This document shows positions 2,178 to 41,554 of a stretch of DNA of 41,554 bases, in pieces. Every line of letters starts with the position of its first letter. The first letter of the stretch is position 1. The stretch is from a virus. The position numbers were made by a program, and so were the translations under genes. The notes beneath the pieces are model-generated. The model searched no databases and had not been told where the DNA came from. It worked only from the letters and a program-made list of their open reading frames with translations. The DNA lies in IMG/VR virus record IMGVR_UViG_3300044799_000061, positions 1 to 41,554 of that record. The stretch is one strand, 5' to 3'.

Positions 2178-5100
2178 TTATTTACCTCCCAATGATTTTA
2201 TTAGTGTATTGTATAAGTCGGTCAATTTATTGATTTTGTCAATTTTCTCTTTGTCGGTAAGGTCTGGGTCGCTTTTTACAAATCCCATCTGAGTCTTTAT
2301 CTGTTTCGTAATCCTCGCCTCTATGACTAATCGTTTTATTTCTTCTTTAGGCACTCCCTGTTTTGTTAATTGGTCAACGGATATTTGTTCACTCTTCGTA
2401 TAGGTAATATCATAAGTTTGCAACCCTACACCGAAAATTCCAAATATTCCAAGAGGCAATAAGTCAGGATTATCTTTTGCAAGGTCAATAAAATCTTGAA
2501 AAACCATAGGAGTAAGTCTGTCTAATATTTCCTTTTTCCAAGTCAATGGTTCACCGATAGCGGTTTGTCCTTTTAGCAAGTCCGTGATAAGACTTGCAAT
2601 TGGGGCTTCTTTATATTCAAGAAATCTCGTTAAAATATCAAGACGAGTTAGAGGTTTATATCCTTCTCCGAGTGTCATAGGAACTCCCGTAGTAGTAGAA
2701 ACATATTGTCCTGAAACAAGTTGTCCTACTAATCTTGCGTATTGCTGGAAGCCACCCCAAATATCAATTCTTGTATTGCCTATCTTGATTTTTCCAACAT
2801 CGGCACTTCTCCAGTCTCCTCCTATTTTAACTTTTTTGAATGCCAACTTTGCCATACTTAAAACAGTTATACCAAATGCTATAAAGGCAAGTAAAGATTT
2901 AAGAGCTTCTTTTCTTACTGGTGGAGATAACTTTGCATAATAAAAAGGATTAAGCAAATTAATTCGTGCTGCCATTAATCGAGGAGAAAACAATAACCCA
3001 TTAAGTAATGGTTGAGCCGATTTTAAGAAGTCGGGAAGGTTGCCTCTTCCAGTGCCGTTGTTAATAAAACCTGTCAAATCTTTTAAAGTTTTAGGGTTAT
3101 CTTTGGGATTAAGTCCTGCTTTTTCAAAATTATTAAGTATAGATTTCCAAGTATAAAATCGTTGATAGTTTAAAAATCCCGTATAAGCCCTATCTGAGGC
3201 TCTCACACCTTTTCCTATGAGAGGTATTTTTTCTGCCCAACTTGACATATAGGCTTCTTCTCTGTCGGTTAATGTTCCGTTTATATCAGTCAGAGCTAAT
3301 TCATATTCCATAGCCAAAGGAAAGTCTGGGTCTTTTGCTATAGTATCCATCAATGTATTAATATTTTTTTCGCTGAAAGCATATCTGAACATATTACCGA
3401 AGGCAAGTGTAAATTCTTTAGGATGTGAAGGCATTAAGAATACCCCCTGTCTAAGTGCTCCTGAGAAGTCATAAGAAGCCATTAAGGCACGAGGGATATT
3501 CATAAGTTCGTATCCAGCATTTCTGATTTTGTCAAACAATGGTTTTGCATCTAAGACAGTTTTAATAAACTCGGTAGGAAATACTTTCTTTAATAGTTTT
3601 AATTCTCCTTCTGTCGGGACATTTCCTCCAAATTCTCCAAACAATTTTGCTAATCCATATCTGGCAGTAACTTTTTCCCAATCCCTAAGTAAAGGACTAT
3701 CTTTAACCAAGATAAATAAAGCCTCGATGTCTTCCTGAGTTACCTTAGAGCGGATACTTTCAAACTGAACCTTTAGTATTTCTCCTTTTAATTGTGCCAA
3801 TTCGGCGTAAAATCCTGCCTCTCCCGTAATCTTTTCACCAACCGCCTTTGCCCGTTCCATTCTTTTGGCTCTTTCCTGAGAATATATTCTTTCTTGTTCT
3901 GCTCTGATAGGTTTTGCTTCTTTGAGAGCATTGACGACTTTTTCAATAGGATTTACTCCTCCCATTCCCACGCCTGTAGGTTTTTCTGTAATAGTTATTG
4001 GTTCTGGTGTAGTAGGGACTTTTCTGTTAAGAAGAACATCTAATTCTTTCTGTAATCTGTTTGCTTCTTCTAAATCACCGTGATTTTTGGCTACTTTGAT
4101 TTTACTTTGATAGTCATAAAAAAGACTTTTTATATTTTCAACAGAAACATTACTTTGTTTTGCAACTTCTTCTAAGGTTGGTCTTTTAGTAGGGACTTCT
4201 ACTTTTGCAACTTGGGGGGTAATTGGGGGGGTTGGTTCTGGTTTGATTTGCCATTCAGATTTTGAAATTAATTGATATTTTTTCTCAATAGGAAGCCAAA
4301 CTTTAAAATTTTTCGGAGTTTCACTAATGAGTTGAATATCTTTTATTTCATTAAATCCACGAGTTTCAGGTATAATTCTTTGTAAAGTAATTTTGGTTGG
4401 TTCTTTTGCAACGGGTTGCGAAACTGGTTTAATAAAATCATTTATCGTTCCAGAATATTTAAGTTCAGGAATGTTAAGTATCGTATCCTTTGGAATTATT
4501 TTTGATAATGCCCCAACAGCATCAAAAATTTCATTAAATCTATTTTCCTCACTTAATCTTCCTCTATCAATTAAAGCATTGTCAATATCATAACGAACAT
4601 ATACTTGGAGTTTTCCATCTACTAACGATACACTGATTCTTGGCATATCAGAATAAACAGTCTTAATTTTCCCGTTTTCAATAAGTTGAGCTTCTTTCAA
4701 TAAATCGTGTCCCGTTCCTTCTGTCGTAAGTGATGTTTTTATCGTATTAATTCTATTTTGTAAATCTGATGGAAGTATTAATTTTTCTCCATTCCATACA
4801 GCAAGACCAATTAAGTTAGGGTTATCGGATTGAAGTTCTTTAGGAATTTGTGCAACAGGTTGCCCCAATATTTTATTTTTAATTGCTTCTTCTTTTGCAA
4901 GAATATCGGGTGGTGTTCTGCCACTGATAGATTCATTCCAAAGCATACCTAAATCTTGAAAAGTAAATGTAGTTATTGGTTTTACTGGAGTATAATCTTG
5001 AATAAGACCAACGTCGCCTCCTTTGAAATTTTTATATTGTTGAAAATCTTTTCTTAAAAATACGGCAACCCCTTCTCCGAGCGGTTCTTCTCCCATCATT

Positions 5101-21460: not shown

Positions 21461-22435
21461 TTAGTCGTTAATCGTAATTAATAGACCTTGTGCAGCCCTA
21501 TTTGAGCAAACTAAGTTATACGATAATGTAGTTAGAGCAAGATAGTTAAGATTGGTTGTTGAAACTTGCTGCCAACCAGTTGACTTAAAGTTAGCATCTG
21601 GATGAATGACTAACTTAAGATAATCTGTATTTAAGAAATACATTGTCTCTGCTGTGCATTGGTCAGACCAAACAACTGGAATGCCGTTAAAAGAAGCACC
21701 TGCTTTAAAACCAAGTTTAAGTGGAATTTCATCGTGGACTAAATATCCAGATTTGTCAAATGCTTCATCTGCAAAGTGTTCAAAAACTGCCTGAGTTGTT
21801 ACGATAAGTGTTGGAGTAGAACTATAAACGCTGAGATGGTTAAGCATGTGATACATTTGTTTTACTAAAGTAGAAGCAGAAGCATAAGTTTCTGAATGTG
21901 CAGCCCACCAAGAACCGTTAGCAACGGTAATGTCCCCAAGTCCCGTTGCATAATTTGCAGGATCAGTCGTCTTTGCAATATCTGGGATTCCGAATGAGGT
22001 ACTTGAACCATCATAAGCGGTGAAAAGTTGAGTTTCCATTTCTCTTGATATATTCATAGCCATATTATCAAGTCTGTTCTTTGCAAAGTCTGCAATAGAA
22101 TCTTCAGTCTTTTCCTGTTCCATCCATTGTTTGTATGTGATGAGGTCTTTTGCTACCCAATAACCCCACTTGTATTTTCCTTCTGTTGCAAACGAATAAT
22201 CAGTTGGAAGTGTTATTTCAGTAGAGCCATCCCAAGACTGAAACGATGTAGCGTCTTTTGAAAGAGCATAATTAAGACTTACCTTAATATAGTCTCCTCC
22301 AGCCTTCGTTACGAATGCCTTTCCTTTTTTCATTAAATTAAGGAAAGGACTTTGTGTTATTACCTGATTTACAAAACCATCGGTAATTGGTTTAATTTTA
22401 AGATACGCATTTAAGGTATCAATTCCTAAAGCCAT
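21461..22435 (-). CDS. Major capsid protein, HK97-fold (P22 gp5-like group), 324 aa
   Basis: Main shell subunit. It follows the scaffold gene by 10 bases and has RBS AGGAGGACTTAA. Features: an N-terminal helix region (MALGIDTLNAYLKIKPITD), a long helix with LDNMAMNISREMETQLFTAYDGS (spine-like), an A-domain region with TLIVTTQAVFEHF and VVWSDQCTAETMYFLNTDYLKLVIHPD, and a C-terminal strand NLVCSNRAAQGLLI. The repeated 'find partner then report DYLKL' layout is standard for HK97-type capsid proteins. Length and gene order agree with the family. Confidence 0.85.
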   Translation of the reverse strand: MALGIDTLNAYLKIKPITDGFVNQVITQSPFLNLMKKGKAFVTKAGGDYIKVSLNYALSKDATSFQSWDGSTEITLPTDYSFATEGKYKWGYWVAKDLITYKQWMEQEKTEDSIADFAKNRLDNMAMNISREMETQLFTAYDGSSTSFGIPDIAKTTDPANYATGLGDITVANGSWWAAHSETYASASTLVKQMYHMLNHLSVYSSTPTLIVTTQAVFEHFADEAFDKSGYLVHDEIPLKLGFKAGASFNGIPVVWSDQCTAETMYFLNTDYLKLVIHPDANFKSTGWQQVSTTNLNYLALTTLSYNLVCSNRAAQGLLITIND

Positions 22436-23468: not shown

Positions 23469-24005
23469 TTAAAACGTATTAACTGCTTTCCCGCCACCTG
23501 TTGGCTGGGAAACTACTCTCCACCTGTAAGTTCCGTCAGGATTTATTCCGTCAAGAACTACGGTGGCTCCTATTTGTAAACCTTGTCCAAAAATATCTGG
23601 AGCAACATTAAACATATTTGTAGGTAATGGTGTTGTTGGTGCTGTTCCTCTTTCGTGATGAACTTCTGTAGTGGTTCCTGGAGTTATTGTTTCCTCTCCA
23701 GTTGCTGTATTATATGTTCCTATTGGAGTTTCTGTTGGTAAAGCCCACCCCTTAGTCGTTGCATCATATACATATCCGTGAGCAATTAATTCTTCTGGCT
23801 TTTTATAAACACCCCTTCTAAGTTTTCCCATCTCGTCAACTTGAGTGAGAATGTAGGGATTAAATCCTGAAACATCTGCAAAGGGGTCTTTAGGAAAAGT
23901 CTTTGCTCCCAAATTTCCAGAAATTCCCTGCCCTTTCTTTCTTTTAACTAAAAAATCAAGAGCATTTCCGTATCTACTCATTTCTGTTAAATCTCGTCTT
24001 GGCAT
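23469..24005 (-). CDS. Head-module hypothetical protein, 178 aa
   Basis: Starts in a TAATG overlap with the portal stop. The N-terminus has SRYGNALDFLVKRKKGQG; the middle holds Pro/Thr-rich linkers (TPGTTTEVHHERGTAPTTPLP); the C-terminus is a small beta unit (ATVVLDGINPDGTYRWRVVSQPTGGG). It does not resemble a protease or decoration protein that I can name. Tight coupling to portal and position before scaffold suggest a head-assembly or portal-associated role. Confidence 0.6.
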   Translation of the reverse strand: MPRRDLTEMSRYGNALDFLVKRKKGQGISGNLGAKTFPKDPFADVSGFNPYILTQVDEMGKLRRGVYKKPEELIAHGYVYDATTKGWALPTETPIGTYNTATGEETITPGTTTEVHHERGTAPTTPLPTNMFNVAPDIFGQGLQIGATVVLDGINPDGTYRWRVVSQPTGGGKAVNTF

Positions 24006-25711
24006 TACACTCCACCCCCCTGACGAAGTTTTTCTAAAATTGTGTCAACTCTTGCTTCGGCTGTCTCTTTTTGTGGGTTTACTGGTGCTGGACTTGCTAT
24101 CTGTTGTGCAGGAGTTTCTCCTGTAGTTTGAGGTTGTTGAGGAGTTTGCCCCTGAGGTTGTGCCTGTTGCATTTGTTGCATCATTTTTTGAGCCTGTTCT
24201 GAGTCTGACTTTGTCTTTTCGTCTATTGAGAGTATTAGTTCTGGTATTCCTGAAAGTAGTGCATACATTTCCTTCGTAATTGCCCCTGCCTGAAGCATTG
24301 CGAGTAAGATATTGTTCCTTGAAAGCCTGTCTTCTGGAAGACTTTCTCCAAAATCAATGTATAAATCAATTTCTTGGTCAAACTTCTTCATTAAATCATC
24401 AACTTGAAGGTCGGTTATTTCCTTCATTTTGCCTAAAATCTTCTTTATTCTGTCGGACCCGTAAAGATTTCTCACCATATCCACGACAAATTTACCAAGT
24501 CTTGACATACTTAAAGCTATTTCTTTAAAATCTGCTTCCGAACCAGTATTCCCTGCCTGTTGTAAAGAAATAATACCTGATGCCGTAGTAGTTGGAGCAG
24601 AACCGCCGACACTTACGGCATAAGTTCCAGTCAAAGCCTGTGCCAATGAATAGGAAGTATACTGGACTATTGAGAACCAAGCAGGATTTACTGGATTATC
24701 TTGTAAAGTCCACAATTCGTCTTTGCTTTCCACCGTTATTAATTCAAGAGGATTATTGGATAAGGTTAATTTAGGGTTTGTCGTAACTTTTCTTCCATTA
24801 TTTGACAGTAAAAGGCTGTCTATAATAAGACCAAGAGCCTTATTGTGTATCCTTTGTATCTGTGCGAGGTCTCTTATCTGAGACGTTCCCCAGAAAGATG
24901 AGGACGAAGGATTAGGTTTAAATGCTACAATGGGTATTTCGTTTCTTTCGGCAACATCAGACAATTTTCTTACATCAAGAATGTTTTTGTCAGTCCAGAG
25001 AATGTAGTATCCGTCATCTGAAAAGATGTTTGGATTATAAAAAGTTTCATAAAGTAAAACTCTGTCTTCACTTTCATCTATGTCATAGACATATTTGATA
25101 TATTCTTTAGGTTTTGGATAAACAACATGTATGTATCTCATATCTGGAATATCGAGTCCATATTTGTCTGGATAAACGTCTAAAGGATTCAAAATAAGAA
25201 AATCAATGTCTTTATCTTTATCGTTCCATCTTATCTTTCCAAAACCAGTTCCGTATATTTTTGAGTCCGTATATCCCAAACAGAGCGTCTTATGAAAATA
25301 TCTTTTTTTCCAAACGTATTTTAAAAGATTTTGCCAAAGGACTGAAACTTGAGTGTCATTAGATTCTACTGGTCTTGGGTCAAAATTTACCTGCCGTCTT
25401 TTAAGCATAGCGACCTGTTGGTCAACAATCGTTTTAATATAATTAACCGTAGGCGTTGCTATAATTCCAGTCTTGTCTATTGTCGTTCCGTCAACATCTC
25501 TGTCCCATTGATTGCCATCATACCAATCCCTGTAAACGGTTAAGATAGACTGAGTGTAGTCGCTTGTTGATTCGGTTTTTTCCTGATTTGCGATGACTTT
25601 ATATGTATTATTTTTTTCTGTATTCGCTTCGTCAAAGTCTAAGTGAAGTTTAGTTAGTAATTTTTCCTCGTCTAAACCCAACGCTTTGAATAATGATTTA
25701 TCTATTTCCAA
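24005..25711 (-). CDS. Portal protein, 568 aa
   Basis: Forms the ring through which DNA enters and leaves the capsid. TTG start at 25711 with RBS TTAGGAGGCATAA. Sequence pattern of P22-like portals: an acidic N-terminus, the segment YRDWYDGNQWDRDVDG, TVNYIKTIVDQQVAMLKRRQVNFDPRP, FGKIRWNDKDKDIDFLILNPLDVYPDKYG, and a long C-terminal region ending in a Gln-rich tail (QQMQQAQPQGQTPQQPQ). Placed directly after the large terminase, as expected. Confidence 0.85.
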   Translation of the reverse strand: MEIDKSLFKALGLDEEKLLTKLHLDFDEANTEKNNTYKVIANQEKTESTSDYTQSILTVYRDWYDGNQWDRDVDGTTIDKTGIIATPTVNYIKTIVDQQVAMLKRRQVNFDPRPVESNDTQVSVLWQNLLKYVWKKRYFHKTLCLGYTDSKIYGTGFGKIRWNDKDKDIDFLILNPLDVYPDKYGLDIPDMRYIHVVYPKPKEYIKYVYDIDESEDRVLLYETFYNPNIFSDDGYYILWTDKNILDVRKLSDVAERNEIPIVAFKPNPSSSSFWGTSQIRDLAQIQRIHNKALGLIIDSLLLSNNGRKVTTNPKLTLSNNPLELITVESKDELWTLQDNPVNPAWFSIVQYTSYSLAQALTGTYAVSVGGSAPTTTASGIISLQQAGNTGSEADFKEIALSMSRLGKFVVDMVRNLYGSDRIKKILGKMKEITDLQVDDLMKKFDQEIDLYIDFGESLPEDRLSRNNILLAMLQAGAITKEMYALLSGIPELILSIDEKTKSDSEQAQKMMQQMQQAQPQGQTPQQPQTTGETPAQQIASPAPVNPQKETAEARVDTILEKLRQGGGV

Positions 25712-25720
25712 TTATGCCTC

Positions 25721-26977
25721 CTAAAATTCCTCTAACCAATTTTTTTTCTCCTTTTTGGGATTTTCTATTTTTCCTTTAAGATTCATCATGTACTGGTCCC
25801 ACCAACTTATCGCCTTTTGATAAACCTTCGCTTTTTCTTCTTCTCTGTCTTTGTAATACTTGTCAAAACCAGTAATCAGATACCGTCTTGCGTCTTCACA
25901 GTGGTCGTTTTCTTCTTGAGGAAGTCCGTTCTTCCAGAGATATCCAGCGTCTTCGTCGAGAAGTCGAATGTTCTTTGGTGAGATTGTGATTCGTTTTGTC
26001 CTGAAGTATTCATTTACAAGTCTTGCTCCGTCTAATCTTTCAGTGTAGGCAGGTTTCCATTCGATGCTTATGCCTTTAGTCTTTAGTCCTTTTTCTATTT
26101 CCATTTTTGCTGCCCTTGCCGTCGGGTCGTAGAAAATGGTTCGTATTTTATATTTTAAAATCAGTTCGGCGACTGCATCAACATGGTCGGAATAAGCCAA
26201 AGACGCCTTATAATATTCGTCTACTAAATGAAGTCCCGTAGTATTTGAGAAAGCAACTTCAAGAACCGTCGGGTCTCCGACGCCGAAATCCATTCCACCG
26301 AAAGACCTTTGCCCTTTATATTCAAGGTCTTTAATGACTTCTTCTTCGTCATATTCGTAAACACGACCTATAGGTTTCGTATATTGTCCGCCGTATTGAA
26401 AGGCGAACTCCTGTTCAGTCAGTAGGACTTTGTCTTTTTCGTATCTATCAAGGTCAAAGGATGGATTTTCCATACTTGAATATTCAAGATATAAAACATC
26501 TCTATCTCCAGTTAGCCATCTCTTTCGGACATAGGTATAAATGTAAGGATCACGACTTCTGTAAGGATTTGTTAGCATGAGAAGTTGTCCATTTTCAAGG
26601 TTCGTTCTGCTTCTTAACGTCTGGTAAGAAAGACGGGAACACTGACCCGCTTCATCCATTACAATTCCCGTTGCGTGAACGCCTTGTAAGTGTTCTGGAA
26701 TTTCCGTAGATAGAAAGTGAATTTCTCCAAATTTATTTCCATAGATATTGTGTTTCTTGTCTATCCACTCGCCTTCTAATTCTGTATCTTTAAAAAATTC
26801 CAGAGTATTTGGAATTGCAATTCTCGCTATCATGTCGTAGGTTGGCTCGGTGAAGATGTATTTTCCGCCCAACTTAATCATTCGATAACCTATCCAGAAA
26901 GGTGCAAAAGTAGATTTACCGCTTCCCTGTCCAGTAGAGGCGACGATTTCTCTTGCATCGGAAAGGAGCATAATCAT
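25721..26977 (-). CDS. terL: Terminase large subunit, 418 aa (N-terminus likely longer)
   Basis: Packaging ATPase-nuclease. Walker A is STGQGSGKST (residues 14-23 from the 26977 ATG), Walker B is GIVMDEAG with Asp108-Glu109, and the motor coupling motif follows at LLMLTNP. The RNase H-like nuclease has Asp230 (GGMDFGVGDP), Asp284 (IFYDPTA) and Asp358 (NDHCEDARRY). Only 13 residues precede Walker A from the ATG, and neither nearby ATG has an RBS. The frame is open for another 24 codons to an ATT at 27049 that has AGAGGG eight bases upstream, giving a more usual N-terminus. Overlap with the small subunit fits coupling. Confidence 0.9.
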   Translation of the reverse strand: MIMLLSDAREIVASTGQGSGKSTFAPFWIGYRMIKLGGKYIFTEPTYDMIARIAIPNTLEFFKDTELEGEWIDKKHNIYGNKFGEIHFLSTEIPEHLQGVHATGIVMDEAGQCSRLSYQTLRSRTNLENGQLLMLTNPYRSRDPYIYTYVRKRWLTGDRDVLYLEYSSMENPSFDLDRYEKDKVLLTEQEFAFQYGGQYTKPIGRVYEYDEEEVIKDLEYKGQRSFGGMDFGVGDPTVLEVAFSNTTGLHLVDEYYKASLAYSDHVDAVAELILKYKIRTIFYDPTARAAKMEIEKGLKTKGISIEWKPAYTERLDGARLVNEYFRTKRITISPKNIRLLDEDAGYLWKNGLPQEENDHCEDARRYLITGFDKYYKDREEEKAKVYQKAISWWDQYMMNLKGKIENPKKEKKNWLEEF

Positions 26978-27017: not shown

Positions 27018-27512
27018 TCATTGAATAATCTGGGTCTTATTTCCGAAATTTCTCTTTCCCTCTATTAAAGATTTTAATTCGTCTTCATTCTTAAAGTCGA
27101 TGATTATTCTTTTCTTTAATTTTATTTCTGCCGACCTTTTAGCAAGTTCATTTAAGGCTTCCATTGCTTTTAATTTTTCGTTTGGCTTGACCGATGAATC
27201 GTTAAGAATGTCCGTAATTATTCCAAACTGGACATAGTCAAAATATTCAAGTAGTTTATTTTCTGTCGGGACCTCTTCGGAATTTAAAAGTTTTTCCGCT
27301 TCGTTGCATTTTCCAATCCAGTCGTTCTTTCGAGACAATTCTTTGATTACCCACTCTTTCGTTCCGAAATGAAGGGCGACCTTGTGGAGACTTCTTTTTT
27401 CTCCGAGACCGAAGTAAAACCAGTACATTGCTTTCTGGTCAAGTTCGGAATATTTTTTTAACTCTTCTTCTTTAACTTCGGTAATTTCTTTAACTTCTTT
27501 TTCGTCTGCCAT
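27018..27512 (-). CDS. terS: Terminase small subunit, 164 aa
   Basis: Recognises the packaging site and recruits the large subunit. The N-terminus is charged (residues 1-25); residues about 25-70 look like a helix-turn-helix (AMYWFYFGLGEKRSLHKVALHFGTKEWVIKELSRKNDW); the rest is helical and suitable for oligomerisation (SSVKPNEKLKAMEALNELAKRSAEIKLKK). RBS AAAGGAGTAAA. It is the first gene of the leftward late block and lies beside the long intergenic region, which could carry the pac site. Confidence 0.75.
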   Translation of the reverse strand: MADEKEVKEITEVKEEELKKYSELDQKAMYWFYFGLGEKRSLHKVALHFGTKEWVIKELSRKNDWIGKCNEAEKLLNSEEVPTENKLLEYFDYVQFGIITDILNDSSVKPNEKLKAMEALNELAKRSAEIKLKKRIIIDFKNEDELKSLIEGKRNFGNKTQIIQ

Positions 27513-28169
27513 TTTACTCCTTTGGTTGAAAACTCGGTTATAATTCTAAAACCCTGCTTTCGCCTAATTTTTACGATTTTTTTTCCACAATCTCCCACCA
27601 CTCCAAAACACGCGTCGGTTGAAAGTCTGGTCGTAAGGATAAGATTTGGTGAGGGATTAGATTTTTACAAGGCTCGGGGGGAAGGACTATATAATATAAG
27701 CCAAGACTTCCGCCACCTCGTTTTACACTCCTCCCACTACCCCATAAGACTTAAATATGAATAGTATTGAAAGTGATAAGTGCCTCGGCAAAGGTGCCTA
27801 TTGAGGTACTAAGTCTTTTAAGGCTCTTTATACAACTATGCAATATGTCTATATTGCATACCAAAGAGAGTATTTAAGGTCAAAGAGGGCTTATAGGGCT
27901 TGGGTTGGAAGGGATTTGGGATAGAGGCTAACAACCCCCTCAAACTTCACACACAGCACAAAAGACTCATCTAAGTCATAACATATCTTTACTCATTACA
28001 TATCTATTGAATTACAACTGATATTGAAAATGAGTGAGCTTCGTTTTTTCGTAAAATCCTAACTAATTAAGGTAAACAATATGTTCAAAGAACTTTAAAA
28101 GACTTTTAAGGTAAATCTACCAGTTGAACTCTTTAAGTAATATATTTAATCTTTTAAGTAACATAGAAA
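27513..28169. other. Gene-poor stretch upstream of the late block
   Basis: About 650 bases without a credible gene. It contains a poly-A/T tract (27575-27592), one copy of a 24-bp dyad (27837-27860) and otherwise AT-rich DNA. On the minus strand it would be the leader between the structured RNA segment and the small terminase. No clear promoter for the late block could be placed by eye. Confidence 0.5.
27837..27860. promoter_or_regulatory. 24-bp dyad, copy 1: TATGCAATA-N6-TATTGCATA
   Basis: Perfect inverted repeat with 9-bp arms and a 6-base centre (arms extend to 10 bp including the flanking T/A). The same arms and spacing recur at 28905-28928, so the element is probably an operator for one dimeric regulator acting on both sides of the divergent region. 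There is no T-tract, so it is unlikely to be a terminator. Confidence 0.7.
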
Positions 28170-28500
28170 AGGTTGCTCGGTTTTAGGGGTCGTGTCAACG
28201 GACTTTCACCTCCAAATAATTGGCGTGGTGCCGTGGACTATACCACTTAACAGTTGCCTATTGGCTCTTCACCACACCCTTGCAAGTCGGTTTCTTTACC
28301 CTCCCTATCCGTTGGGAGTCAGCTTTTAACGAGTTTACGCCTCGACGGTTTTAACCAGAATACCGAAAAAGGTTTGTGGGAAGATCGTCGTCTCCCCGAT
28401 GGTTACCCCCGTCAGCCAAACGACTGACCTACCTCGCCAAACGGTAACCTACCCCGACTTTCGCAACGTTGCAACTGTCCAGTTTATAGTAAGGGAAAAA
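28170..28500 (-). ncRNA. Candidate large structured RNA with pseudoknot, minus strand
   Basis: This segment is much more GC-rich than its flanks (35 of 60 bases are G/C in 28381-28440 versus 18 of 60 in 28561-28620) and holds no credible gene. On the minus strand it forms these helices: 28471-28479 with 28249-28257; 28443-28449 with 28401-28407, enclosing 28424-28428 with 28411-28415; 28391-28397 with 28378-28384; 28341-28344 with 28330-28333; 28314-28318 with 28301-28305; 28270-28278 with 28222-28230; 28243-28246 with 28233-28236. The first and the 28270/28222 helices cross, a pseudoknot. Three helices contain G-U pairs that become A-C mismatches on the plus strand, so the minus strand is the likely RNA. 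Boundaries are approximate. Known phage giant RNAs (ROOL, GOLLD) are candidates, not an identification. Confidence 0.65.
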
Positions 28501-28787
28501 ATTGTCCCTTCATATACTAATACCCCGTTGCTCCTCAAAAATCTGCAAAAAATCTTAAAACACACGGAATAGTTGATATTAGATAACTTTGACTTTGCAT
28601 TAAATCTATTCTCTTACCTTATTTTAAAATATCTTCGACTTGACAAACGAGGACAAGGAAATAAGGAAAGACCTACAAACAACTTTTCTGTGTCAAAATA
28701 TGTCAAAGCACAACTAAAGCAATTCTCATAAGTCCGTGCGTCTTATTTTAAAATATAATTGTCAAGTGCTGAAAATTTTCTACCCCC
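28501..28787. other. AT-rich intergenic stretch with duplicated palindrome
   Basis: No gene seen. It holds two copies of a 15-bp element containing the palindrome ATTTTAAAAT (28618-28632 and 28742-28756), each next to a TTGAC/GTCAA motif. A weak rightward promoter-like pair (TTGACA at 28640-28645, 16 bases, TAAGGA at 28662-28667) shares the spacing of the main early promoter. Confidence 0.4.
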
Positions 28788-28815
28788 TTGACAAGAATGA
28801 AAAGTCTGTTAAGAT
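28788..28815 (+). promoter_or_regulatory. Main early promoter, TTGACA-N16-TAAGAT
   Basis: Consensus -35 (28788-28793), 16-base spacer and TAAGAT -10 (28810-28815). Transcription should start near 28821-28823, that is at the ATG of the first gene, giving a leaderless mRNA. It heads the rightward block of about 11 kb. An identical-architecture promoter lies at 2018. Confidence 0.8.
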
Positions 28816-28820
28816 AGAGT

Positions 28821-30369: not shown

Positions 30370-31016
30370 TTTACAGTTATAGTAAAATTGATACTTATAT
30401 TAAATGTCCTCTTCGTTTTAAATTTGAGTATATCGATAATCTTCCAAAAGTTAAAAGCGATTTTCTAATAGTGGGGAACATTCTCCATGCTTTGAGTGGA
30501 GAATATCTAAAGACAAGGAATTTAGAAAACACACTTTTGAAAATGAAACTCTTTGCAACACAACTTGACGACTTGCCTAAACTATCCTTACCTAAAGAGA
30601 CTTGGGAAGACCTTATGACAATGAACCTTAAACAGTTGCTCCCCTACCTTCCAGATGATTTTACGGACCTTGAAAAAAAAGTCGAGGGAAAAATCGAGAG
30701 TTATAATTTCGTTGGTTTTGTGGACATCTTGCGGGATAGTGAAATTATTGACCTCAAGTTTCGTAAGAAATACCGAGAACCTGACACAACTCAACTTAAC
30801 TTATATGCAAAACTTCTGCAACGCTGCGAAAGTGGCAGATTTATCACGTCCTCCTTTCTTGATGGGGTTTTGGTTGAAAAGATTGAATACCAGGACCCCA
30901 CCGAGTTCCTTTTAAAGATTATTGAAAGGATAGAAAGGAAGGAGTTTTACAAGAAGCCTTCGGGGCTTTGTAATTACTGCTCATTTAAAGAGCAATGCAA
31001 GGAGGTTAAAGAGTGA
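30366..31016 (+). CDS. Cas4/RecB-like PD-(D/E)XK exonuclease with Fe-S cysteines, 216 aa
   Basis: Signature elements in order: SYSKIDTYIKCPLRFKFEY (Cys14), VGNILHAL (His41), GFVDIL (Asp120), IIDLKF (Asp129, Lys131), QLNLYAKLL (Gln143 motif) and LCNYCSFKEQC (Cys202, 205, 211). Four Cys placed as one plus three is the Fe-S arrangement of Cas4 and AddB nucleases. Phage versions act in recombination or end processing. It overlaps both neighbours by 4 bases. Confidence 0.85.
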   Translation: MIYSYSKIDTYIKCPLRFKFEYIDNLPKVKSDFLIVGNILHALSGEYLKTRNLENTLLKMKLFATQLDDLPKLSLPKETWEDLMTMNLKQLLPYLPDDFTDLEKKVEGKIESYNFVGFVDILRDSEIIDLKFRKKYREPDTTQLNLYAKLLQRCESGRFITSSFLDGVLVEKIEYQDPTEFLLKIIERIERKEFYKKPSGLCNYCSFKEQCKEVKE

Positions 31017-31195
31017 AAATAGTATTAGCGATATTGGGAGTAATTTGTTTAGGTTTTATCGTATTTTTCTTAATGGCAAAAGGCACTATTTGGATAGTTA
31101 GAAGTTTATTCAATAAAGAATTACCTTTTTGGCAAGTATTCTGGGGTTTAGTGATTATTAGGGGGATATTTACTAACTATGACCATAGATTTTAA
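31013..31195 (+). CDS. Membrane micropeptide, 60 aa
   Basis: GTG start in a GTGA overlap. Residues 3-30 form one long hydrophobic helix and a second hydrophobic patch lies at about 38-54 (FWQVFWGLVIIRGIF). A polar gap between them may make it a hairpin membrane protein. No homologue recognised. Confidence 0.65.
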   Translation: MKIVLAILGVICLGFIVFFLMAKGTIWIVRSLFNKELPFWQVFWGLVIIRGIFTNYDHRF

Positions 31196-41427: not shown

Positions 41428-41554
41428 TATCTCTTTTTATAACCTAACTTACTTAATTCTCTAATGAGTTCGTCTTTGAAATCAAAGAAAAGCATAATCC
41501 CAAATTCGTTCTTGCAAAGTCTTCCATAAGTATCGAAGTTAAATTTGTCATCTC
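41428..41554. repeat. Terminal direct repeat, right copy (circular overlap)
   Basis: Identical to positions 1-127. The preceding base (41427) completes the stop codon of the 247-aa gene, so the junction is inside the gene end and consistent with a circular molecule. Confidence 0.95.

Follow-up and report, generated by a model that had tools for sequence, protein, structure and literature searches.

ROOL occurs in phages and prophages, often near tRNA islands, a neighbourhood that is typical for this RNA and not defining, and the solved ROOL RNA is 659 nt long and comprises P1–P19 (PMC12286853). GOLLD is also a large non-coding RNA associated with phage, and a homo-oligomeric RNA cage and high abundance are marks of both classes. 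Put-type antitermination elements are much shorter than the segment considered here. The stretch of DNA that we analysed (the window) is a virus record of 41,554 bases, and since bases 1–127 are identical to bases 41428–41554 (a direct terminal repeat) it probably represents the whole genome, about 41.4 kb in size. Late genes on the minus strand and early genes on the plus strand diverge from a gap that contains a GC-rich segment (Table 1), and this segment lies directly upstream of TerS, TerL and the portal gene, all on the minus strand, so the initial annotation was right to place it beside the terminase genes. TerS, assigned only weakly by its PHROG match, is 34–36% identical to the gene preceding TerL in each of four related phages (L006, L007, L008 and L048, described below).

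Table 1. Positions of the genes, predicted structural elements and conserved motif discussed in the text (coordinates of the window).
Feature	Position	Strand	Remarks
Major head protein	21461–22435	-	
P22-like portal	24005–25711	-	
Terminase large subunit (TerL)	25721–26977	-	PHROG 2
Terminase small subunit (TerS)	27018–27512	-	PHROG 6299, weak
Divergent intergenic region between late (-) and early (+) operons	27513–28820		1,308 bp
Near-palindrome CAACTATGCAATATGTCTATATTGCATAC	27833–27861	.	29 nt; conserved in L008
GC-rich non-coding segment, candidate structured RNA	28170–28500	-	GC, codon usage, folding
Domain closed by helix A	28249–28479	-	231 nt; best-supported structural unit
Helix A, GACAGUUGC / GCAACUGUU	28479–28471 / 28257–28249	-	pair probability 0.996
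Helix B, AAGUCGG / CCGACUU	28460–28454 / 28290–28284	-	enclosed by A; pair probability 0.996
Helix B extension, UUGC / GCAA	28466–28463 / 28283–28280	-	
Helix J	28318–28314 / 28305–28301	-	enclosed by A; pair probability 0.998
Helix C, GGUGUGGUG / CACCACGCC	28278–28270 / 28230–28222	-	would cross A as a pseudoknot; within chance
Sigma-70-like promoter, TTGACA-16-TAAGAT	28788–28815	+	immediately precedes the ATG (28821) of the early operon
Replication genes (exonuclease, DnaD-like loader, DnaB-like helicase)	from 28821 on	+	

The segment is similar to ROOL in that it is phage-encoded, lies in a non-coding gap and can be drawn with many helices, but it has no Rfam match, measures about 230–330 nt against 659 nt and sits in a genome without tRNA genes (ARAGORN found none in the whole 41.6-kb window). 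With GOLLD it would share the character of a large non-coding RNA associated with phage, but it is much shorter and again has no Rfam match. A cmscan search of the whole window with 4227 Rfam families matched none at E ≤ 5, and the segment and gap searched alone at E ≤ 10 returned only chance matches of 11–17 bits to unrelated families; this negative result covers the ROOL, GOLLD, OLE, raiA and intron models, which the initial annotation had suggested searching, insofar as they are included in Rfam 15. Membership of any of these classes is unsupported, and so is the likeness to ROOL and GOLLD drawn originally. Neither is the label 'giant' justified by the sequence, as the element that can be drawn spans about 230–310 nt. 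Like the leaders of late operons and put RNAs, the segment would follow the late promoter, precede the first gene of the late operon and fold in cis, but it has no sequence match to them and its transcription is presumed.

The compositional anomaly is clear. The GC maximum of the genome is the 330-nt interval starting at 28171 (0.500 compared with a mean of 0.360, SD 0.038, thus 3.7 SD above the mean), the segment is also top-ranked among 300-nt intervals, and both the contrast with the flanks and the boundaries given in the initial annotation are borne out. There is no long ORF in the gap. The ORFs inside the segment have codon-usage scores of -0.35 to -0.62, compared with a mean of +0.14 for chunks of true genes and values of -0.2 to -0.5 for wrong frames, and they have no match in Pfam and one negligible match in PHROG (E 0.05), while tblastn with the longest of them in phages was empty. 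A protein-coding gene is not supported by this codon usage and the missing protein homologs, and the description of the segment as gene-free stands. The anomalous non-coding segment is real and its GC anomaly is unexplained.

The predicted folding is more ambiguous. The helices discussed here were reconstructed in this analysis, the initial annotation having given no helix list. In the thermodynamic ensemble helices A, B and J dominate (Table 1), while C, D, F, G, I and K each have a probability below 0.02 and helix E reaches 0.13, although helix C cannot appear beside A in a pseudoknot-free model, whatever its reality. The best fold including C has an energy of about -106.7, compared with -106.6 for the best pseudoknot-free fold, before any pseudoknot penalty. 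Among crossing pairs the strongest was A x C, with -35.5 kcal of stacking, which 137 of 500 dinucleotide shuffles (27%) also reached, and the best single stem in the segment was equalled in 198 of 500. Helices with a crossing pair, as originally proposed, can thus be drawn, and in this reconstruction A, B and J are paired with a probability above 0.99, but neither the single stems nor A x C go beyond chance.

Comparison of folding energies with shuffled sequences leads to a similarly mixed picture. The minimum free energy (MFE) of 28170–28500 corresponds to z of -1.36 on the minus and -1.26 on the plus strand; for 28245–28485, an interval delimited with helix A already in view, the values are -3.44 (0 of 200 shuffles as good) and -2.76, and for 28240–28460 they are -1.21 and -3.87. 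The z-scores hence hinge on the ends chosen, and the plus strand is about equally good. A greedy helix sum permitting crossings gave z of -2.7 for the minus strand (0 of 300 shuffles) and did not favour the plus strand. The assignment to the minus strand is thus favoured by this sum and not by MFE. The original argument for this strand, from G-U pairs, is weak, because most of the helices are not beyond chance or have low probability and C is not formable beside A. In a 240-nt scan of the genome, the lowest absolute minus-strand energy (-81.6) was found at 28205–28444, and several to many coding intervals had a stronger z than the segment, in a scan that is rough at 15 shuffles per interval and 600 of 690 intervals. 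Taken from this single sequence, a structured RNA is possible.

We tentatively favour, as the likeliest single explanation and one that we hold weakly, that the segment belongs to the leader of the late operon as a structured, non-coding portion; its transcription, strand, promoter and function we infer. A leader of about 970 nt for the late (packaging and structural) operon would run leftwards from a promoter near 28500 and would fold into the compact domain 28479–28249, closed by helices A and B. This domain may act in cis, for example if it places an antitermination or regulatory factor on RNA polymerase ahead of the late genes, or it may alternatively be a stable processed RNA. Support for a leader comes from a GC content that, in a gene-free gap, exceeds the 36% of the genome by 3.7 SD, with non-coding codon usage; from the lowest minus-strand energy, the z of -3.4 for 28245–28485, the helix sum not reached in 300 shuffles and the probabilities of A, B and J; and from the position upstream of the minus-strand TerS-TerL-portal genes. 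It is weakened by the z of only -1.4 for the segment, by the equal or better folding of the plus strand in several intervals, by the coding intervals with stronger z, by the frequency of the crossing pair in shuffles, by the lack of a match in L006 in spite of the shared layout, and by the lack of a recognisable minus-strand sigma-70 promoter near 28500. If the RNA is real, a phage late operon would be headed by an orphan structured RNA, which would offer a handle on the switch to late expression or packaging in such distant phages.

Relatives were found through the terminase. Single-protein scans with TerL, TerS, helicase and portal detected no related loci, while a TerL motif pattern led to one locus (L005), an alignment built from it to 42 TerL relatives, and a further alignment to one more, in a Desantisbacteria metagenome-assembled genome (MAG). 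Four phages share the TerS-TerL-portal-head block, with TerL identities to the window of 48% (L006), 41–42% (L007 and L008) and 49% (L048). The last of these is a 6-kb contig (MNUO01000013.1) that was assigned to the bin of a Candidatus Desantisbacteria MAG, which weakly hints at the host group unless the binning is wrong. The complete gap upstream of TerS is present in L006 only, as the contigs of the other three stop about 40–520 nt upstream of TerS. L006 has the divergent layout of the window and a GC-rich stretch at the matching place, and nothing in its gap resembles the segment by sequence or by covariance model. Within this GC-rich stretch, at 4794–4879 of L006, an 18-mer (GTTTGCGGGGCTGCTATT) is repeated in tandem in 4.8 copies, possibly as iterons or a packaging site. 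An identical 14-mer, GAGTTTTCAACCAA, is found upstream of TerS in the same orientation to the terminase at 27522–27535 of the window and 5173–5186 of L006, which is within chance.

Blastn with the segment itself in phages and plasmids returned only chance matches of 20–45 nt, exact patterns in IMG/VR and nhmmer revealed no homolog, and a single-sequence covariance model (R1) run over the relatives and the MAG found only the segment itself and chance matches, including L065. These searches covered phages, plasmids, IMG/VR patterns and 15 related records; records very near the window may fall outside this set, so the missing close relatives are no proof of absence. The motif GAAGAGCCNNNNGGCAACTG had 12 matches in IMG/VR, and the best of them, L065, lies inside a small zinc-ribbon-like ORF and is therefore attributed to chance, while the RNA motif GGAGGTGAAAGTCCGTYG had zero matches there. 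A 23-nt match in the Desantisbacteria MAG falls in an NADH-dehydrogenase-like gene and is also a chance match.

Two serious rivals to the leader have to be weighed, both less probable. One is that the segment acts as double-stranded DNA, as a pac or cos site or a replication origin, in which case the pairing of a transcript would be irrelevant and the GC content would reflect a protein-binding sequence. Terminase cut sites are commonly in or near the small-subunit gene, the cumulative GC skew of the profiled stretch has its minimum in the gap (divergent transcription alone gives such a minimum), and the about equal folding of both strands is what would be expected of a DNA element. The gap also carries the 29-nt near-palindrome CAACTATGCAATATGTCTATATTGCATAC, which aligns with positions 142–170 of L008 at 26 of 29 positions (0 of 200 shuffles score equally) at a similar distance from the TerS start, about 340 nt in the window and about 365 nt in L008, in the opposite orientation relative to the terminase genes and next to a TerL that is only 41% identical; it is absent from L006, in whose gap the GC-rich tandem 18-mer also speaks for a DNA element. 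Since CAACTATGCAATATGTCTATATTGCATAC consists of two inverted arms, TATGCAATAT and ATATTGCATA, around a variable centre, it suggests a protein-binding or recombination site. However, both the conserved palindrome and the repeats of L006 lie elsewhere in the gap, 28170–28500 itself contains no repeat or iteron array, and the excess of helices is on one strand. We consider a DNA element rather unlikely, if worth serious attention.

The other rival, to which we assign the same low likelihood, is that no structure has been selected at all and the segment is an acquired GC-rich stretch or a decayed gene, with helices such as any 330-nt sequence of 50% GC would have. This would be consistent with single stems and a pseudoknot that match shuffles, with the z of -1.4, and with the absence of a homolog anywhere searched, including the gap of L006. 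On the other hand, the minus-strand helix content and the bounded domain 28245–28485 exceed shuffles, and a decayed gene is difficult to reconcile with ORFs that have neither coding signal nor protein match and so leave no trace of a gene.

Beyond the leader and these two rivals, it is improbable that the segment represents a new class of phage RNA with a pseudoknot, ~300 nt long and transcribed from the minus strand where the late operon of a so far isolated lineage begins, with a role in late expression or packaging. Nothing in the evidence calls for a new class, and under the leading reading the segment would be another structured leader RNA. Hand-drawn pseudoknots in a GC-rich 330-nt stretch come near chance level, and evidence from relatives is needed before an RNA class is named. 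It is very unlikely that the segment is a stable RNA in its own right, belonging to a new class and having a real A-C pseudoknot: the strand order A5', B, C5', A3', hairpin K, C3' would give a compact P3-P7-like arrangement, and the fold with C equals the pseudoknot-free one before penalty, but equally strong crossing helices arise in 27% of shuffles, there are no homologs and no terminator-like site was found near 28170. The same strand order, with the B domain in second place, recalls P3, P4-P6, P7 and P8 of group I introns; this likeness is unsupported by Rfam (no match at E ≤ 10), the pseudoknot is not beyond chance and no recognised gene is interrupted. Similarly, GGAGGUGAAAGUCC resembles the RNase P CR-I motif, and this is also unsupported by Rfam. 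The least probable reading of all is that the segment belongs, as a divergent member, to one of the large phage RNA classes already known (ROOL or GOLLD) or to a different Rfam class. The gene-free, GC-rich and helix-rich phage location would speak for it, as ROOL is found in phages and prophages (PMC12286853), and against it stand the lack of Rfam matches at permissive thresholds, the lack of a tRNA island and the short length compared to the 659-nt ROOL.

At the other end of the gap, the sigma-70-like promoter precedes the early operon in a region where promoter-like sites are no more numerous than in shuffles. If it is real, early transcription need not pass through the GC-rich segment. Identical 15-mers (CTTATTTTAAAATAT) are found at 28618–28632 and 28742–28756, each containing the palindrome TATTTTAAAATA and closely preceding TTGACAA or TTGTCAAG, and they are candidate operators near the early promoter. 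Further into the early genes, the minus strand of 30845–31084 folds with a z of -4.8 (0 of 200 shuffles), in an area that includes the end of the exonuclease gene, which lies on the plus strand.
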